Positions 7,619 through 55,981 of a DNA stretch of 64,000 nt are shown piece by piece (the first letter of the stretch is position 1; each line of letters begins with the position of its first letter). The translations under genes were made by a program, and so were the position numbers. The notes beneath the pieces were generated by a model. That model was not told the origin of the DNA. It saw only the letters and a list, made by a program, of their open reading frames with translations, and searched no databases. The stretch comes from Dentipellis sp. KUC8613 (Eukaryota > Basidiomycota > Agaricomycetes > Russulales > Hericiaceae): positions 62,001 through 126,000 of the forward strand of contig NSJX01000037.1 of NCBI GenBank assembly GCA_002286715.1, given 5' to 3'.

Positions 7619-8867
7619 ATGTATTTCGATGCTATCTACGAGCTCTTCTCCCTCAAGAAGTACGGCACGTTGCGTTCACCATCTCTCCCATCTCGTGTCT
7701 ATCATACGGAATGGACACCCCTGAAGACTTTCGTCCAAGAAGTTCGGGACTGGTACTCTGATCCGAACTTCAACAGAGATATGGACAACCACGATCCTAC
7801 CGTACGGGCAGCATTCCATTGCAAAAAGACCGTGGGGCAGCTGCAGCACGAGCTCATTGCTTTGGTCTTCACCACGAATGTGAACACCCGAGGGGACACG
7901 CTGTGCGTTCTCGAACGTCAACCAGATACAATGGAGAAGTCCCCTTCCTTCATAGTGCCTGCGGCGGCAACTGCTCTTTCGATCGGCAAGGACAAATTGA
8001 GCAGCCTGGACGTGATGGCCAACGATAGGTTCTGGTGTCATGGCGATAGCAACTGGGAGGGCTCTGCTAGCAGTCTCGGACGGCGTATCGTGAAGGCCTT
8101 AAAGGATGACTCCAAGGTCAAAGACTCCCCAGACTACGGCATTGTAGGCTGCATTGACCTCTCTGCCACCCCTCTATCACTCTTTACTATTGCTGCCATC
8201 CTTGAGACCGCCTCAACCCATGAGTCCCACTATAACATCCTTCGGACAAACTGTGCATGGTTTGCAGCAGTTTGTATGGGTCTACTTCGAACTTTCCCAG
8301 GGGCTGTGGAAGTTCGGGACTGCCTCCATGGCACGCTGAAGCCTGGAGTTTCCATTGGCACACAATGGTCAGCCTTCTACTCCACCTGGCCAAAGGCAAC
8401 CATACTTCCGGTGCATGATCAGAACGTGATCCCTGCCCATGAGCTTTCTGAAGAGGACAGCCTGAGTTTCGACCAAGACATGCGCAGCTCTGCCGATCCC
8501 CCTCCGCTTGCTCCCAAAGTCACCAGCAACCTCTCCCAGGTGCCGAGTGCGTTGCATTGCTATGCTGTTCGGAATGCAAACCCGCGTTCCATCCAAGCCG
8601 CATATGATGAAATCCGTGAGCAGCTGAGAACATCTATCTTATGCAACAGAGATGTGAGTTTCTTGGTCGTGATGGTGCGGAGGGCACTCAACGCTGTGCT
8701 AACCAGTTACTTTACATCAGGACAGGCTTCCTGAAGTGGGGGGCCGTATTGGGGAAGTCGCTAGGGAGAGGGATGAATGGAAGACGAAATACTTGGAATT
8801 GGAGAAATCGGTTGCAATGGCTTCAGAGTCTTCAGATGGCCAGAGGTCCAGGAGCAAGCAGTTATAG
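7619..8867 (+). CDS. Protein of unknown function with an LRAT/NlpC-P60-like NC motif
   Basis: Two exons (7619-8653 and 8721-8867) are joined across a clean GTGAGT...ATCAG intron and give about 393 residues. I do not recognise a named family. The most telling stretch is HESHYNILRTNCAWFAAVC near residue 200. An NC-W/H-F-A motif after a histidine is reminiscent of the NC(E/W)HF catalytic-cysteine motif of LRAT and NlpC/P60-type circularly permuted papain folds. The hydrophobic segment VGCIDLSATPLSLFTIAAIL just before it could form the preceding strand and helix. The short second exon is charged and helical, ending in a basic, Ser-rich tail. There is no signal peptide. The start was chosen because the frame is open from ATG 7619. 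A cysteine-protease or acyltransferase-like activity is inference only. Confidence 0.6.
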
Positions 8868-9081
8868 TCACAATTTTTGTTCACCAGCAAGCATACTTTT
8901 TCAAATTTATCTCGCCCGTCGTCTGAGTTAATGTTCATTCAAATTTGCTGTGTTCAACTGTCGAAGGTCATCTCACTGGCTGTTTGACTTGTTCGATGAG
9001 CACAATATTTCGTTATTACAGAGCATCCATGAATGTGAGTCCAATAGAGTGAGTGGAGCCTCCAGACCAAGAGTCCTCAAT

Positions 9082-45560: not shown

Positions 45561-48500
45561 ATGAATACACTCAAGCCATCCAAGCCTACAACCGTCATGA
45601 ACAACTACCACCTCCTCATTCTTCTTTTCCTTCAGCTCTTCTGCACTCTCTCTTCACTTCCCCTCGTCGCTGGAGCCTCACCAGACCTCGTCAACGTTTC
45701 CTCTGTCGACATCGGAAGGGCCCTCGTCTTCGTACCGTCGCCTGAGAGGCTGGTTCCCGGCAAGCCCCCACCCTGGCCGTATATGAACCCTGCGACGAGG
45801 AACCCGATGAACGCCATTCACCTTGTTCTGGATACTTCCCTCGGGAATGTCCTTCCGTCTGCAAACATTTCCTCTATTTCATCTCTCCCTTTGAACTCGT
45901 CTCAAGACTCGATTTCTCTCTCAAGCATTGCTCAAACGATTCCAATTCCAACACCAGATCTATATATTCTCTCAATTTATATCTCCGCTATGTCGCTCTT
46001 CATCTATCTTATATACTATAATATCTCAACTCGGAAGGCCCTCCGCTCGACCACCAGCCGCCTTCAAACCCTCACCCAGTCGCACGCAAATCTTCAAGAC
46101 TCTGCACGCCGACATGCCTACTGGACGAGGATCCTATTTTCCCTCAGCACCAAACAAGCTACCGCCAACAAGACCCTTCAAGCCGAGAAAACCGGCTACC
46201 TCGAACGCATTAGCGCATTGCTAGTCGACAAGGAGGCGCTCTCAGGTCAAGTTGGCGCGCTGCAAGTGAAGATGGGCGAACAGACCCGGCGTGCCCACGA
46301 CGCCAACGCTGCATTCTGTCGTCAGATCGCCATTCTCAACGGACAGGTGACGGATGCGGCGCTACGCGAGGATGCGCTGCTGGCCAGGATTCAGGACCTG
46401 GAGCAGGCCGCTCGCGAGGACCGCGCTATTAGGCGCAAGGTCGAGTCGGAGGTGCGTCTTCTTTGATGTCTTTGTATGCAGTGGCTCACGATCGATTCTT
46501 TCCTTCTTTCATGCAGCGCGATGACCTTCGTGCACGGTTTGAGGCTGTGGAGCGAGCGTTCCGACTTGAACAGGAGAAGAATGAACGTTTGGAAGTTGAG
46601 GTGCGCCTTGCTTCTTTTTCCCTGGTCTACCTGGACTTACGAATTGTTCCTAGAACTCGCAGCTGAAGACTACCCTCGACAAAGGGAACAGCACCATTCA
46701 AGAGCTGACCTCGACCGTCACGGAGCTCAAGTCTAACATCGCAGACCTCACAGTGTCCAAAGACGTCCTCGTCGCAGAGTGTACAGTCAAGGACGCTACC
46801 GTCACCGAGCAATACGACCAGCTTTCCCAGCGCGCCACCGAGATCCTGGAGCTCACTCAGTCGAAGGACACCCTCGCGCAGCAATGCACTTCGCTCAAGG
46901 CCCAGCTCATCGACGCTCGTTCGGACTTCGTCAATGTCGTCTGTGTTTTGTCTAGGACAGTCATCGCGTCTTCCGCGGATCGCACTACCATTGCCGACCA
47001 GCGCATGGTCATCCGCGAGCTGAAGACGCGCGTTGTGGACCTCGAGGACTTCACCCTTCAATGCTTGTTCAATATCGAACACGCCAAGGACCAGGTTTCA
47101 GCGCTCACCGAGTGCGAGGAGAGCCTCCAGCGCGAAGTCGTAGCCAAGGACGACCTTCTTGCTGACCGCAGCCGCGAGCTCGGGCAGGTGGATTCTCAAC
47201 TTCGTGATTCCATCGCTTCTCGCACCGCTCTCGAAGACCACCTCGCATCGAAGACTCGTCTTCTTTCCGAACGCGACAGCGAGTTGTGCGACGCGCGGAC
47301 GAGGATCTCGGAGCTAGAGGCCGCAGTCGACGCCGTCCATGGCGAGTCCACCGGTACTGCTATCCTTCTCGCCGAGTGCCACTCTAAGCTCGACCGCGCG
47401 CTATCGGACAATTCGGACATCAGGGCCTCTGAGGCTCGCATCACCCATCTGCATGCCGAGGCCGCGTCGAAGCTGGAGCGCGCAGAAGTGGAGATTCAGG
47501 ACCTTGTCTCGCATTCCGCGGCCAAGGATACTCTCATTTCCGACCAGCAAGAGCAGCTGGAGCGCGCGCGCTGGGAGATCACCGGCCTTCAAGCAACAGT
47601 GACATCGCTCGAGGAGCGCGCCTCTGCATCCGATGCCCTGCTCAACGAGCGTCGGGACCACATCGTCGCACTCGAGGAGAGGACGACGGAGCTGGAGGAC
47701 CTTCTCTCTGACTCCATGTTCAACTTCGAGGAGGCGAAGGACAAGATCTTCGAGCTCACCGATTCTGAGGCCGAGCTTCGGCGCAAGACGGCTGCTCTCG
47801 AGGGCCGTCTTGCTCAGTGCAGTGACGAGCTTCGGGACGCCTCTGCACATGGCGAGGAGCTCGAGGACTTGCTCACGATCAAGGTGCGCTCCTTCTTTGC
47901 TCCAGTTTGATCTATGCTGACCTGGTGTTCAGGAGGACGGGCACAAGACTGCTCTCGACGAGATGACTTCTAATATTGAAGCCCTCCAGAAGCAGAAGGA
48001 CGCCCTGGAGTCCAAGGCCAGCGACCAGTACGAGCTCCTCGAGGAGACCATGATGGAGCTCATGCAGTGCGGGGAGGAGGTAAAGGCCTGCCACGAGCGC
48101 GAAGCGGCTCTGCAGGGGAAGGTTGATGAACAGGATGATCTCCTGGAGGAGACGATGATGCGGCTCCTGCAGCGCGACGAGGAGGCGGATGAGCGCGATG
48201 CGGCGCTGGAGGAGAAGGTTGGAGAGCTCGAGGCGCTTCTTCAAGCTGAGGTGCGTTGCTGAAATTTTCTTCTTCGGACTTATTGCCTACTTTATCTGTA
48301 GGCTGAGGCGCGCACTACGCTGAAGCTCGAGGTGGAGGCGAAGACCGTTGATGTCAAGTGCAAGGAATTCGAGCTCGAGGCATGTGCCAAGAAGTGCGAG
48401 GAGCTCGAGATGGAGGTTGCTATGCAGCGCACTACGATCGCCCTGGGCGAAGAGGAACACAAGGCGCGGGCGGAGGAGCTCAAGAAGCTTCGCCTCGAGC

Positions 48501-49162
48501 TGGCTATGGTCAAGTTGCAGAGCGACGCGGGGGTTTTGGATCTCGATGATTATGAGGAGCAGGAGGTCGAGGGGATGCTCGACATGGGGGAGGAGGGTTA
48601 TTCTGTGGACGCACCCGAGGGGATGCTTACCATGGCGGAGGAATTCGCGTTGATGGAGGAGGTTGAGGGGGTGCTCGACATTGCGGAGGAGGAAGAACCT
48701 GTCGAGGCTACCGAGGAGCTCGAATTCGCAGAATCTGAAGAGCCCGCACAGTTCATTGCTCCAGCTCGCACCACATTCTCCCCGAGACGACCCTCGCCTC
48801 TCAATCCTCTTCCCCTCACTCCACCCGCCACGCCTCCCACCGACGAATCTCTGTACGATCGCGACATTTCCATCCTCCGCACAGGCATCCTCGTCCGTCA
48901 AGCACTGCGCTCCTTCAACGCGCCCGTCCCTCAGGGTGACCCGGAGCACGACGTTGTGAAGCCTCCAGTGGAAAAGCTGCCTCTCGTCCGTCTCCCCTCG
49001 AAGCGCAAGGACGAGAACTATCCGTGGTCCCCTTCGAGCATCCCCGCTTTCGTCCCTTATTGCTGGCGATCTTCGAACCTGCTTGAGCATCCTTCGGGTT
49101 CCAGGATTCCTTCGCCGTCTCGCCTTCGCTACAGGGCAAAGGAAAGTTTCGATGATCTCTAG
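45561..49162 (+). CDS. Type I membrane coiled-coil protein, copy 2 (unknown function)
   Basis: Five exons (45561-46451, 46517-46599, about 46654-47882, 47933-48249, 48303-49162) encode about 1,120 residues. Order of parts: signal peptide (HLLILLFLQLFCTLSSLPL), glycosylatable outer domain of about 110 residues, one membrane span (LYILSIYISAMSLFIYLIYY), about 800 residues of near-continuous coiled coil, then a Pro-rich tail with RRPSPLNPLPLTPPATPP and DISILRTGILVRQALRSFNA. The layout is that of copy 1, and both copies keep open frames and the same splice sites, which argues that both are functional. The outer domain and the C-terminal tail are the best conserved parts between copies. Conserved in-frame sequence upstream (from Met 45450) leaves the start uncertain. 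It could be a membrane tether or scaffold; nothing in the sequence proves a link to mating beyond position. Confidence 0.85.
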
Positions 49163-50632: not shown

Positions 50633-51489
50633 ATGAAAGCTGCGGAATCACTTCAGCAAGAAGTTTCAGAGCTCAGGTTGGCCTGATCAACAGAGATGAT
50701 TGAACACATTTGAACGAAACATGGAGATTCAGGCTGCGCCTTCAGGGGACATGTGTCAATATCTTCTGATTCCAGCGTGCAAACGGATGGGACATGCCTC
50801 GAATATATCCAATAGAGGCCGAATGCCACTCATGCCAGGGTCCAGACCGATCTAATCGACCGGTATCCCCGCAGACACCTACAACTTGGATGGCAAGAGC
50901 TAGACTTTCGATTGACGGGACCGAGAGATATCTGCCGGATCCGGACGGCCTTGCACTGGCAGATCGTCGTCCGACGCAGGAAACGGACAGCACGCTGGGT
51001 ACGAGCTGGATGTGAGATGTCGGTGTGGCGTATTGGACTCAAAAGATGATTCTGGCTGGTGAGGTCGCCTCAAAACGTCACGAGGCAGCGTAGGTCCAAC
51101 CTGTGGCAATGGCTGTGCACTGACTGCGTCGCCATCAGCCGACGTTCTCTGGCAAGGTTGGTAGATGAGGGAACAGCCCTGTCTACGCATGATGCAAGCA
51201 TTCTTTTCGGTGTTGAATCACTTTCCTGGGAGGTTGATTGATGGATGCAGCAGAGTATGAAGCGCCTCATTCATGAAGATAGTTCAGTGCAACAGAGGCA
51301 TGAAGTGGAGGATACCTTCTATACAAAAAAATCTGTAAGTGAGCCTATTTTTTAATGTCTATAATTGCCATTACTTAGGTATTCTCCTGTCTACCCACAC
51401 ATGAATTTCAGTCTTTATATTACAGCTATGTATACAATTCACTTCTAAACTGCTTCACATGTGCTCTAAGTTATACAAATGATGCATAG
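50633..51489. other. Intergenic spacer, entering the CpG-depleted tract
   Basis: No gene is seen. CpG content is ordinary up to 51264 and then falls abruptly; the last 225 bases before the DDB1 stop contain none. Confidence 0.45.
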
Positions 51490-54449
51490 TCAATGTAAGG
51501 CCTGAAGATTCTCTAACACATGTCTGATATCCCCTTGTTTCATGTCCAGCTTCTCTGCCTCATTCCCACCTCCCATGATTTTCTGCATATCTGCTGAAGA
51601 GGATGCATATGTCAAGAACTGCTCCAAAAAGTCACCATCAAGGAAGCCATAAGCAGCTTCAGCATCAGTCTTCCCATATCCACCAACTGGTGCTCTCCAT
51701 CTGAAATTCAAATGAGTAAGGATAATCATGAGTGGCAAATGATTGGAAACCTACCTGATATGCTTTGTACCAGTGATGTCTTCTTTTATCCTGCTCAAAT
51801 TGCGCTGAAGTGCAGACATATGCAAGGCAAGCTCTTGCTCCATGTCAATAATGCAGCCAATCCTGCCTGAAGAAGTGAAGAAAAAGGTCTTGAGCCTCAA
51901 TTTGTTGTCCTGGGAAGGATCTTGTGCATGCCAGTCACCTTTATAATGTCAACACATGGTTCATCACAAATTTCACTAGAAAACACTTACTGAAGATGAA
52001 TTTGTTGATCAAGTCATCCAGGTGATAACTTCCATCCCTGTCAAGAATTCTCCTGGCCTCAACATTTTGGACTGTAAATGAGAAGAGGTTGCAGTCACTC
52101 TGATAAAATGCTCATCAGTAAGATATGATTAGAGGGGAAAATGGCACCTACAGTTGCACCAATAAGACTGGTATTGCTCCACATCTCAAGGGCAACAGGT
52201 CCCAAAGGGCCATAATCTCTTGCCACAGTCTCCAGCCCTTTCTCACCTCTTTCAGCCTTGAAGTCTAGGATTGACACAGAGCTGACAGCATCTCCAGTAG
52301 CCAGACTAGACCCATGAGATGACAGGCTTGTCACAAAGAAGTTGTGAGTCCATTTGGATAGCATCTCTACCTGCAGCTTGTCACCACTCTTCACCTGGTA
52401 AATGACAACCTACACCAAGTATCAATTATGCTTCTCAAAAATATATGGCCAGGTTCACTCACAGATGAATTGATAGCAACTGCCAGGTAGCCATCTAGAG
52501 AAGACATGGCATAGATGCAGCCAACAACAGAAGTGGATGCCACTTCCTCCAAGGTCATGAGCCCACTAGCAGGAGACTTGGTTGCAGCAACTGTGACAAG
52601 CCTGCCTTGAGAAGGCTCAGTCTCATCATTTTGATAAGTGACAGTGCCAAGGAAATAGTATGAAGCTGGTTTGTCTCCAATCTGCAAAGAATGGACAGCT
52701 GTGATTTCCTCATTGTCACTGCATTCAAACTGAGCCAGATCTGCATAGCTTTGAGAATATTGTGATTACATAAAAATACATAAGTACTCACTATCAAAGG
52801 TTGTGTCATCAAAAATAATAAATTTGCTCTTGACTTGCTCTTGTTCTCCAATACTGCTGGGCTCAGAATGTACACATGCCACCCCAAAAGTTCTACCAAT
52901 TGGATCATGTGCAATTCTCCTGGGATTATCCAGTCCTAGAGGTATCTAAATTATGATCAGTTTAAATGCATGAAATATAATATGCAGCACATACTGTTTG
53001 AATATGCATCTTGTCAAGATCCTGAACTGAGCCAATAACAAGACCATGCTGAGTCATAGTTGCAAGGCAGGAATTCCAGTAAGGAGTATGCAAGTGACAA
53101 CTAGATGATGAATCCTGCAAAAGAAAGAAAAAGGTCAGCAAAGGCTACCATCTCAAGTTAATATCATACCTTCAGCAAAACAGGTGAATTTTGGAACCTC
53201 CCATTATTCCAGAACAACACAGCTGCCCTACTCCCAGAAGCAAAGACCATTGGCTTGTCTTCAGACCCACAAGCAGTAAGTGTAACAGGAGCAGCACCCA
53301 AAGAAGTGACTCTGCAATCCTTCAGTTCTTGATTGAGGAAGGAGTAAGACAATACAGTCCCATCAGCAAGACCAACAAGGAGGTAGGGCTGGTACTCCAG
53401 AGGCTTGAGTTTCCGATCTGCACCCAGGTTGTGAAGCAAGACTGATCTTGGCAAGGCAGGGAGGGTGACACCCACACAGACAGGCATGAGATAGGAATCT
53501 GCACTGGTGAGAGAGAGAACCTCAACAGAGTTAGTGTCCCAGAATCCCACCACAGCATAAGGTGAGTATGGCTTGTTGTCAACAGGGCTGCAAGAAATCA
53601 CAGCAATCTCATGATCAAATTTCTTGCTCCTGAGATGATAGAATTAGATACAATCAGAAAATTTCCATGTAAGAGGCTTACCCAATTTCATGGAACTGAT
53701 AAGTATCATCTAGCCTCAAGACAACTAGCCTCCCTCCTTCAAATGCCAGCAAAATCTGACTTGGATTGATTGAAGCATGCAGGATAGAGCTCTCTCCAAC
53801 AGGATCCCACTTGCTGATGGTGGTATAAACTTGCAGGGCTTCATCAAACTCTAGAAGAATAACCTGAGTGGCAGTGACCTGAATAACATAACCAGAATCC
53901 TCATAAGAGGTAGTTGTGCTCCCTGGCTTCTTGGTACGCTTGGCAATGTTGCCTACAGTCAATGTGGGTGATACAGTAGAAAAGCCAGAAGTGGATGCAT
54001 CAGCATATGAGACAGTATCTGGACTGCTGAGATGGAAAAATGAGGCCTCAAATCCATCAGATGCCAATAAGAAAGCATCATCCCTGAATATTTGTTAGCT
54101 ACAATGCCAAAAGCCATGATAAGTGAGAGACTCACAGATCCACATATCTTCTTCTGAGAGGCCACATATGTGTGAAGTTGGCCAAGCCCTCAATCACAGC
54201 CTGCTCATGGAAGTCAGCACCATTTCTGATGACCCTCAGGCTCCCAGTGTTCTTCATGCCAGAGCAGGTGACAATGTGAGGCTAGAAAGATTGTCTGTCA
54301 AATGAGGGAAAAATAATACCCAGAAATATACATACCTGACCACTATCATCAGTATCAACAACTGCAGCATCCAAGATGGGTGCAATATTCTTCCATGTAT
54401 CCAGAACCTCCAGGTACTGTCCCTTGGCAGCAATGACACAGCCCTCACT
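51265..54449. other. CpG-depleted tract covering the 3' two thirds of DDB1
   Basis: Read base by base, this interval of about 3.2 kb contains only three CpG dinucleotides (51803, 53414, 53937), with TpG and CpA plentiful. Both edges are sharp: CpG at 51263 on one side and several from 54450 on the other. The right edge falls inside an exon. The coding frame is intact through the tract, and arginines in the part checked use AGA/AGG codons. Confidence 0.92.
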
Positions 54450-55981
54450 CGGCCTGATGTCGACTGTCCCTTTTCCTTTGCTGCTCGACATGAGGCTACT
54501 CGGGGGCATTGTTCGCACTTCAGGAGTAATCGCTAGTGTCGGTGCATCTATGCCAGACTGGGGAGACTGGAGCACGTGTAAAAGCTGCGAGTCCCCCGCG
54601 TGTGAACCGAGGAAAAGCATTTGCGCAGTGAGATAGGTCAACGACGTGGGAGCAGACACCTGGAAACATATTTCAGTAAGATTGCATCGACAGCAATAGA
54701 GACGCCTTACTTGACCAAGCGGAAGTAGGATGAGACCGTGCGTCGGTAACAGATCTAAAGACAGCAGTGCAAGTCGGCCGTACGCGTCACCTAGGAAATA
54801 GCGGGAACCCTCGTCATTCGCCGTACACCACCTTCAAAACTTCGTTAGCATGCGCGAGACGACAATACCGTAAAAACACCTACGCCGTCACCTCACTCCA
54901 TGGCCACTCCACCGATGCAGTAGCCTTTCTCCTCTTGACCTCCCTTTCCTTCTGCCTCTCCTTCGCTCCGGCCGACGTCTTGGGATCCTTCAACTGTTTG
55001 TCGAGTCTCTTCTGCTTGCCCCTGTACTTCTCCTGCCATTCTCGGGAAGCCAGTTCATACAGCAAGATCTTGCGCCCGCCGAGGATCAGCACGCCGCCGG
55101 AAAAGGAATCGTCGTCGTCTTCAGCATCGCTGGACTCGGGTTGCGTCGAAGGGAGCGCGGGAACAGTGATCAGCGCAGGAGGGAATTCACTGAGTGGGAA
55201 ACTCGAAGTCGATAATGACGTGGGAGCAAGTATGAGCGACGAGCTTCGGGATAGCTCGTACTGAGAAATGTGGAGGTCGTGAGCGACCAGCTGCATGCGC
55301 TGATGATGATCCACGTGTAGAACAGCGATGACATGATGATCAACGCTCTGGGATATGATTGCGAGCGAGAGGATGTTGAACTCGGATACTCTGAGTGGAA
55401 TGAGGATCGATTAGGAATTGACTCGGTAGCATATAGCGAGTTGGAAAGCATACGTGACATCGACCTCCTGCTTGAATTTCCCGTCATCGAACACGAGAAC
55501 CTTGAGTTTTCCCACGTAGCAGCTCGCTAGAGCGACGTCTCCTGAAGGCGAAACGACGACATCGTGGAAGAACTCGGCATGGCGGAGAGAACCACGCTCC
55601 TGGAGGTCGACGACTCGCAGTCTCGACAAAGCACCTTCACCACTAGGAGAGACACTGTAAGAGAGGATAGCAAGCTTGGGTTCCGGATGATCTGTCATGA
55701 CAATCACATTGTCTTTGCCGCTCTAGATATTCGAGGTGAGTATATGCTGAGAAGTCCATATGATCATGACATACGCCGGTGGGCAGAACTTTCAAAGATG
55801 CGACACGACCCCAAACTTCGGCCGTGCATTCGTGATGAAGCCCCTCCGGACGAGCGGAGTAGACCTCCAACCGATTGGTTTTGGCGACGACGAGGTGAAC
55901 CAGGGTCTTGTCCCCTGTAAGATGACATCTGACAGAGGCAGCGACGGATGAAGGCTGATGAAAGGTGGATACAACCTTCAT
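51490..55981 (-). CDS. DDB1: DDB1: damaged-DNA-binding protein 1, CUL4 ubiquitin-ligase adaptor
   Basis: The gene starts at 55981 (MKVVSTFHQPSSVAASVRCH) and ends at 51490 (VLENLQALH), in about 14 exons, giving roughly 1,100 residues, the usual size. The N-terminal propeller (MMS1_N) is recognisable in LVVAKTNRLEVYSARPEGL. QMLFLGSHAGDSQLLHVLQ, APILDAAVVDTDDSGQ and TCSG...GSLRVIRNG correspond to well-conserved DDB1 segments. The C-terminal CPSF_A part shows GLDNPRRIAHDPIGRTFGV, SKFIIFDDTTFD and GFLDGDFLEQFL. An insert of about 50 mostly basic residues (EWQEKYRGKQKRLDKQ onward, near 55040) interrupts the first propeller region. The protein links substrate receptors to CUL4 in the nucleus for DNA repair and chromatin control. 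In Neurospora its counterpart (DIM-8) acts in heterochromatin formation. From about 54450 to the stop the gene is almost free of CpG, unlike its 5' part. Confidence 0.92.

Follow-up and report, generated by a model that had tools for sequence, protein, structure and literature searches.

Codons 439 to the end of the DDB1 gene of Dentipellis sp. KUC8613, together with the intervening introns and some 225 b beyond the stop codon, form a desert of CpG dinucleotides, which is probably a scar left by mutation where a fixed domain of the gene was heritably methylated at CpG for a long time. The loss is specific to CpG and has a definite mutation spectrum, the edges are sharp, the frames remain open, and the same picture recurs in four genes, with the surviving CpGs mostly in arginine codons; 5-methylcytosine, acting over a long time, is the cause that we infer. 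Since the other three deserts are in two genes of the DNMT1 class (referred to as C22 and C128) and one SNF2 gene, the pattern suggests that genes of the methylation machinery have themselves long been methylated and mutated. The window, which is the whole stretch of 64,000 nucleotides analysed here, is part of contig C103 (275,860 b) of a 34 Mb genome, and it has the following features:

51490..55981, minus strand: DDB1 gene (CPSF-A/MMS1 family), 15 exons and 14 introns, 1244 aa in the model
54450..55981, minus strand: CpG-normal 5' part of DDB1, codons 1-438, CpG o/e 1.07
51265..54449, no strand: CpG desert, 3 CpG, GC 0.43
54336..54659, minus strand: exon with the right (5'-ward) desert edge, from the exon list and the CpG positions
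53937..53938, no strand: surviving CpG in the arginine codon CGT of residue 574, a position with R in 70% or more of homologues
53414..53415, no strand: surviving CpG, arginine codon CGG
51803..51804, no strand: surviving CpG in the arginine codon CGC of residue 1159, a position with R in 70% or more of homologues
51265..51489, minus strand: desert past the DDB1 stop codon (3' UTR or flank), about 225 b, 0 CpG, then ends

The gene was assigned to DDB1 by MMS1/CPSF-A domains along the whole length of a protein of about 1200 aa: the precomputed domains of the deposited protein P0001 are PF23726, PF10433 and PF03178, and several homologues bear the name DNA damage-binding protein 1. The product is a 100% match to a protein of Dentipellis sp. 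KUC8613 and is 89% identical to that of D. fragilis, the next homologues being at about 50%. P0001 has 1249 aa, that is, five residues more than our model, whose frame is open for 1244 codons; the gene is thus intact and its 5' third CpG-rich, as a preliminary description of this DNA had it.

Only 3 CpGs are found in the 3185 b of the desert (o/e 0.02), at 51803, 53414 and 53937, whereas its base composition predicts 148 and the CpG density elsewhere in the window predicts 277; outside the desert, the longest CpG-free gap in the window is 104 b. The same description had reported about 3.2 kb with three CpGs in place of more than a hundred, and its coordinates proved exact. The nearest CpGs outside are at 51263 and 54450. 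Rightward from 54450, successive bins of 100 b hold 7, 8, 6, 9 and 7 CpGs, such that normal density is reached at once; leftward from 51263 the bins hold 2, 8, 9, 7 and 7, with normal density back within about 100 b. Position 54450 is inside the exon 54659-54336, where the right edge had already been placed. Inspection by eye of 40 b on each side, with no statistical test, showed no motif common to the edges. A mild CpG dip (o/e 0.49-0.68) is also present at positions 8001-9000 of the window, outside the desert.

When the 807 codons of the desert were recoded with the codon usage of the upstream part of DDB1, 177 +/- 10 coding CpGs were obtained (500 draws, minimum 142), against the 3 observed. 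The desert does not reflect codon choice alone, because CpG is missing just as completely from its introns (0 in 539 b, against 11 in 218 b of the four normal introns of DDB1) and from the 3' flank (51264-51489, 0 in 226 b).

The loss is CpG-specific and transition-like. At third codon positions followed by G, C is absent from the desert (0/275) and T takes 164 of 275 positions (60%), whereas upstream in DDB1 the shares are 53/148 for C (36%) and 37/148 for T (25%), together 61%; the gain of T therefore equals the loss of C. Third-position C followed by other bases shows no loss (178/532 in the desert, 33%, vs 85/290 upstream, 29%). The earlier reading of deamination-like transitions fits these counts, and the abundance of TpG and CpA that went with it is seen on the + strand, at 81.3 and 102.4 per kb vs 62.9 and 67.8 in positions 1-51200 of the window. 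NCG codons are absent from the DDB1 desert and NCA codons go from 17/119 to 61/200, but this rise accounts for only about half of the lost NCG, which we count against the reading as a methylation scar. A strand asymmetry of the transitions was considered and rejected, the excess of TG versus CA being inconsistent among the four deserts (per kb of coding strand, TG/CA are 102/81 in DDB1, 79/86 in C22, 84/91 in C128 and 103/79 in SNF2).

All three CpGs that survive in the DDB1 desert are in arginine codons. In the four deserts taken together, CGN arginine codons account for 16 of the 20 coding CpGs that survive (CpGs outside the coding models, two in C22 and one in SNF2, are left out), compared with 13 of 104 hand-counted coding CpGs upstream in DDB1 (Fisher p 4e-9). 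The remaining arginines are mostly encoded by AGA or AGG: 26 of 29 in the DDB1 desert and 100 of 116 in the pooled deserts, vs 9 of 22 upstream in DDB1. Time is needed for the change from CGR to AGR, a transversion, and slow decay of CpG under purifying selection would be expected to leave such survivors and such arginine codons. It is also favoured over a burst, because a single burst is expected to break these proteins.

The genome has ten matches to PF00145, at six loci, and a desert is present at the two where a BAH domain was found. The DNMT1 class is marked by BAH plus DNA_methylase, with RFD (replication-foci) in the N part; C128 (P0121) carries all three, and C22, placed in the same class, has BAH and DNA_methylase, no RFD being seen in the part fetched. 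The two proteins are 30% identical over the compared stretch, and the C128 query is 77% identical to a D. fragilis protein. The C22 desert contains 8 CpGs in 3551 b and both of its edges were observed, while that of C128 contains 5 in at least 3189 b and has its 3' edge within the coding region, the 3' end of the gene being CpG-rich and the 5' end lying outside the sequence fetched. The C22 gene model comes from a crude splice search, and as the frame of its CpG-rich 5' part is unreliable, its upstream counts were not used. An ORF within the C128 gene (L044:2257-2628), carrying what we take to be a methylase-like motif, VRECARAQGFPD, is missing from the deposited P0121, whose gene model may skip an exon. 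Also on C128, two RdRP-type genes (46877-49052 and 53559-55899) lie in inverted orientation within 9 kb.

The other four PF00145 loci are CpG-normal (o/e 0.94-1.18). One, on C150, has a SNF2 match 3 kb away and is, by its features, presumably DNMT5; another, on C100, which we take to be DNMT2 from its motifs, had no Pfam match in the ORF scanned. Two divergent DNA-methylase matches, C92:22317 and C92:80975, cover the first profile positions only. A Pfam scan of one ORF piece each revealed no BAH in the C150, C100 and C92:80975 loci.

The fourth desert is in a SNF2 gene, modelled by a crude splice search; the 5' side is rich in CpG, and the edge, at L105:2131, is sharp. Homologues of the gene reach about 50% identity, are many in Agaricomycetes and mostly bear no telling name, and we know of no tie of this gene to methylation. 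CpG o/e across the four deserts is 0.02-0.07. The preliminary description is supported as to the deamination-like decay of CpG, the intact gene, the edge in an exon and the absence of a transfer, but not in taking DDB1 for the single gene reshaped.

The frequency of deserts was estimated at sampled points of 300 b, 60 matches in all. An o/e below 0.3 was found at 1 of 20 SNF2 points (of 47 matches, one per gene) and at none of 12 SET (of 12), 3 cullin (one point for each of three genes, 13 matches), 5 RdRP (of 18) and 20 reverse-transcriptase points (RVT_1, of 24). These rates led us to reject the desert as a trait of chromatin genes generally, and also as a trait of retrotransposons, whose 20 points have o/e 0.45-1.33. 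Twenty arbitrary stretches, 192 kb in total and seven of them on C103, were read as well, and 19 have no CpG-free gap above 213 b; the exception, L023, is a contig end where two pieces poor in CpG, 0.8-0.9 kb long, lie within repeat DNA or next to it. L023:1-3438, at the start of C103, is rich in repeats, alternates between CpG-poor and CpG-normal DNA and has 64 matches in the genome including itself. Many genes with the same profile, a finding that would have spoken against the preliminary description, were not encountered in this sample of about 1% of the genome. Beside the sampled rates, it is striking that both genes with BAH and methylase are deserts, a post hoc comparison with no formal test and with about 1% of the genome read. 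Our literature search, in which subscription journals are poorly covered, found no report of CpG deserts in DDB1 or DNMT1 genes of basidiomycetes.

Edges that ignore gene structure would also suit a RIP- or MIP-like episode, in which a gene segment was duplicated, the CpGs of both copies underwent mutation or methylation over exactly the length they shared, and the extra copy was then lost. CpG-targeted C-to-T change in repeats is known from three Basidiomycota, according to the accessible text of PMC4352252. However, when the genome was searched for another copy of the DDB1 desert (as DNA and as protein) and of the C128 desert (as DNA), none turned up, although a copy may have been lost earlier, and the two DNMT1-class proteins are just 30% identical over the compared stretch. 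Moreover, a burst hitting some 150-280 CpGs is expected to break the protein, whereas the frame is intact and the arginines are mostly AGR. Among repeats, the 20 sampled RVT_1 points are not deserts, and the two short CpG-poor pieces of L023 lie in repeat DNA or next to it. Classical RIP, with C-to-T chiefly at CpA and an inactivated gene, was discarded, since here the loss is at CpG, CpA is raised and the frame is kept. RIP and RIP-like mutation alike call for more than one copy of a sequence, and the searches found one each of the DDB1 and C128 deserts. A past repeat-induced episode is less likely than a methylation scar, and we hold it for a doubtful candidate.

Silencing-machinery genes could instead have shed CpG under selection, in order to escape methylation and shut-off, and that DDB1 and two DNMT1-class genes are deserts is in line with this. 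Such selection does not need C-to-T in particular, and it would be expected to act above all on the promoter and 5' part, yet in DDB1 these remain rich in CpG, as does the 5' side of the SNF2 gene. The low arginine content described below looks like a cost rather than like neutral recoding, and on the whole this explanation appears improbable to us.

Finally, part of the gene could have been replaced from a CpG-poor source by transfer, introgression or gene conversion. Sharp edges, one of them within an exon, are expected from a replacement, as is a step in GC such as that from 0.53-0.56 in the flanks to 0.43. But trees of the desert part and of the N part both join KUC8613 with D. fragilis and then with Hericium (support 100 and 99), identity to D. 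fragilis is 90.0% in the desert part and 87.9% in the N part, and the same anatomy is found in three genes at other loci, of which two share a contig and lie about 480 kb from each other. Foreign DNA is an unlikely source, the agreement of the trees being what the absence of an outside transfer, held from the beginning, would predict, and replacement in any of these forms merits very little credence.

The protein alignments bear on the age of the scar. Among 120 of 135 DDB1 homologues, those listed, D. fragilis has the least arginine in the desert part and KUC8613 the next least, and their N parts are ordinary (columns with less than 60 or 80% occupancy were removed; one arginine comparison used 31 hand-matched species). 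Low arginine in both Dentipellis proteins points to an origin before their split, and we infer, with caution, that the loss of CpG began before KUC8613 and D. fragilis separated. The contrast within the protein (arginine of the desert part minus that of the N part) is modest, 9 and 2 of the 120 proteins being lower (z -1.4 and -2.1). Loss of conserved arginines is not special to Dentipellis: at the 15 columns where 70% or more of homologues have R, KUC8613, D. fragilis and Hericium are each without R at 4, though total arginine in the Hericium DDB1 is high. A faster evolution of the desert part was not distinctive either, the branch-length ratio of the Dentipellis stem (1.47; overall 1.13) being exceeded in Hericium (1.71) and Bondarzewia (1.62). 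In DNMT1 (59 of the 66 proteins P0121-P0186, those of 900 aa or less removed), both Dentipellis proteins are fourth and fifth lowest in desert-part arginine. Pholiota (P0176), Neolentinus (P0169) and Ganoderma (P0172) are lower still, and hence low DNMT1 arginine is not specific to Dentipellis.

In the explanation that we prefer, heritable CpG methylation would have been confined over a long time to a fixed intragenic domain, where deamination of methylated C to T on either strand would turn CpG into TpG or CpA. Purifying selection would meanwhile keep the protein, leaving CpGs mostly where their decay would change an arginine and shifting most remaining arginines to AGA or AGG, and the same process would have acted on the two DNMT1-class genes and one SNF2 gene. 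Retrotransposons are the usual targets of methylation, and that their sampled points are not deserts was counted against this reading. The genome has the DNMT1-class genes and a putative DNMT5, and the basidiomycete toolkit consists of a CpG-preferring DNMT1-RFD plus DNMT5, as stated in the accessible parts of two reviews (PMC13297926, PMC7862722).

Feedback on the methylation pathway becomes more conceivable because two DNMT1-class genes are deserts as well. We would advance only tentatively, as a speculation with the odds against it, that the methylation system places marks on the bodies of the genes that serve it (two of the DNMT1 class, DDB1 and perhaps an SNF2 partner) as a standing feedback brake, in domains with borders fixed to tens of bases since before the two Dentipellis species split; the genes would then carry a mutational record of their own product. 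In a bolder form, the methylation would be a counter-defence: transposons or extra copies with pieces of these genes could have directed it, by homology, to the silencing genes of the host, and the ends of the pieces would be the edges of the domains. If the scar is what we propose, it is a readable record of what methylation costs in conserved genes, located, in our sample, on genes that make or possibly direct CpG methylation. Feedback of DNA methylation on its own writers would become testable in a mushroom-forming fungus, the sharp-bordered natural domains would be useful for finding what confines methylation, and the change of arginine from CGN to AGR could be a clock for the duration of gene methylation.

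Several known systems share elements with these deserts. CpG-targeted C-to-T mutation of repeats in Microbotryum, and weakly in two rusts, is linked to Masc2-type DNMT1 enzymes in the available text of PMC4352252. The CpG context is the same, but the Dentipellis deserts are coding genes with no repeat partner found, and there it is the repeats that are mutated whereas the sampled retrotransposon points of Dentipellis are not deserts. In Zymoseptoria, the dim2 methyltransferase gene was hit by RIP and exists in many copies, most of them non-functional (PMC8016269, as far as its accessible text goes). There too a methyltransferase gene is scarred by a mutation system linked to methylation; in Dentipellis, however, the search found a single copy, and the reading frames are open. 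DIM-8 of Neurospora is DDB1, a member of the DCDC complex. It is thus of the same family as the Dentipellis gene, and is needed in Neurospora for heterochromatin and DNA methylation. The latter depends there on DCDC, a complex of five components (PMC2973830, accessible text). The three cullin genes of Dentipellis, unlike DDB1, are CpG-normal at one point each.

A further comparison is with the gene-body CpG methylation and CpG erosion of animals and plants; for fungi, the accessible part of a review names Uncinocarpus reesii and Metarhizium robertsii. The Dentipellis deserts differ in that they occur in few of the sampled genes, two of the DNMT1 class included, with near-complete loss (o/e 0.02-0.07) and edges sharp to tens of bases. 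Like them, gene-body methylation leaves CpG-specific transitions in transcribed genes whose protein is kept, and its signature, CpG turned into TpG or CpA in introns as well as exons while the 5' end is spared, is found in DDB1, the 5' side of the SNF2 gene being spared as well.
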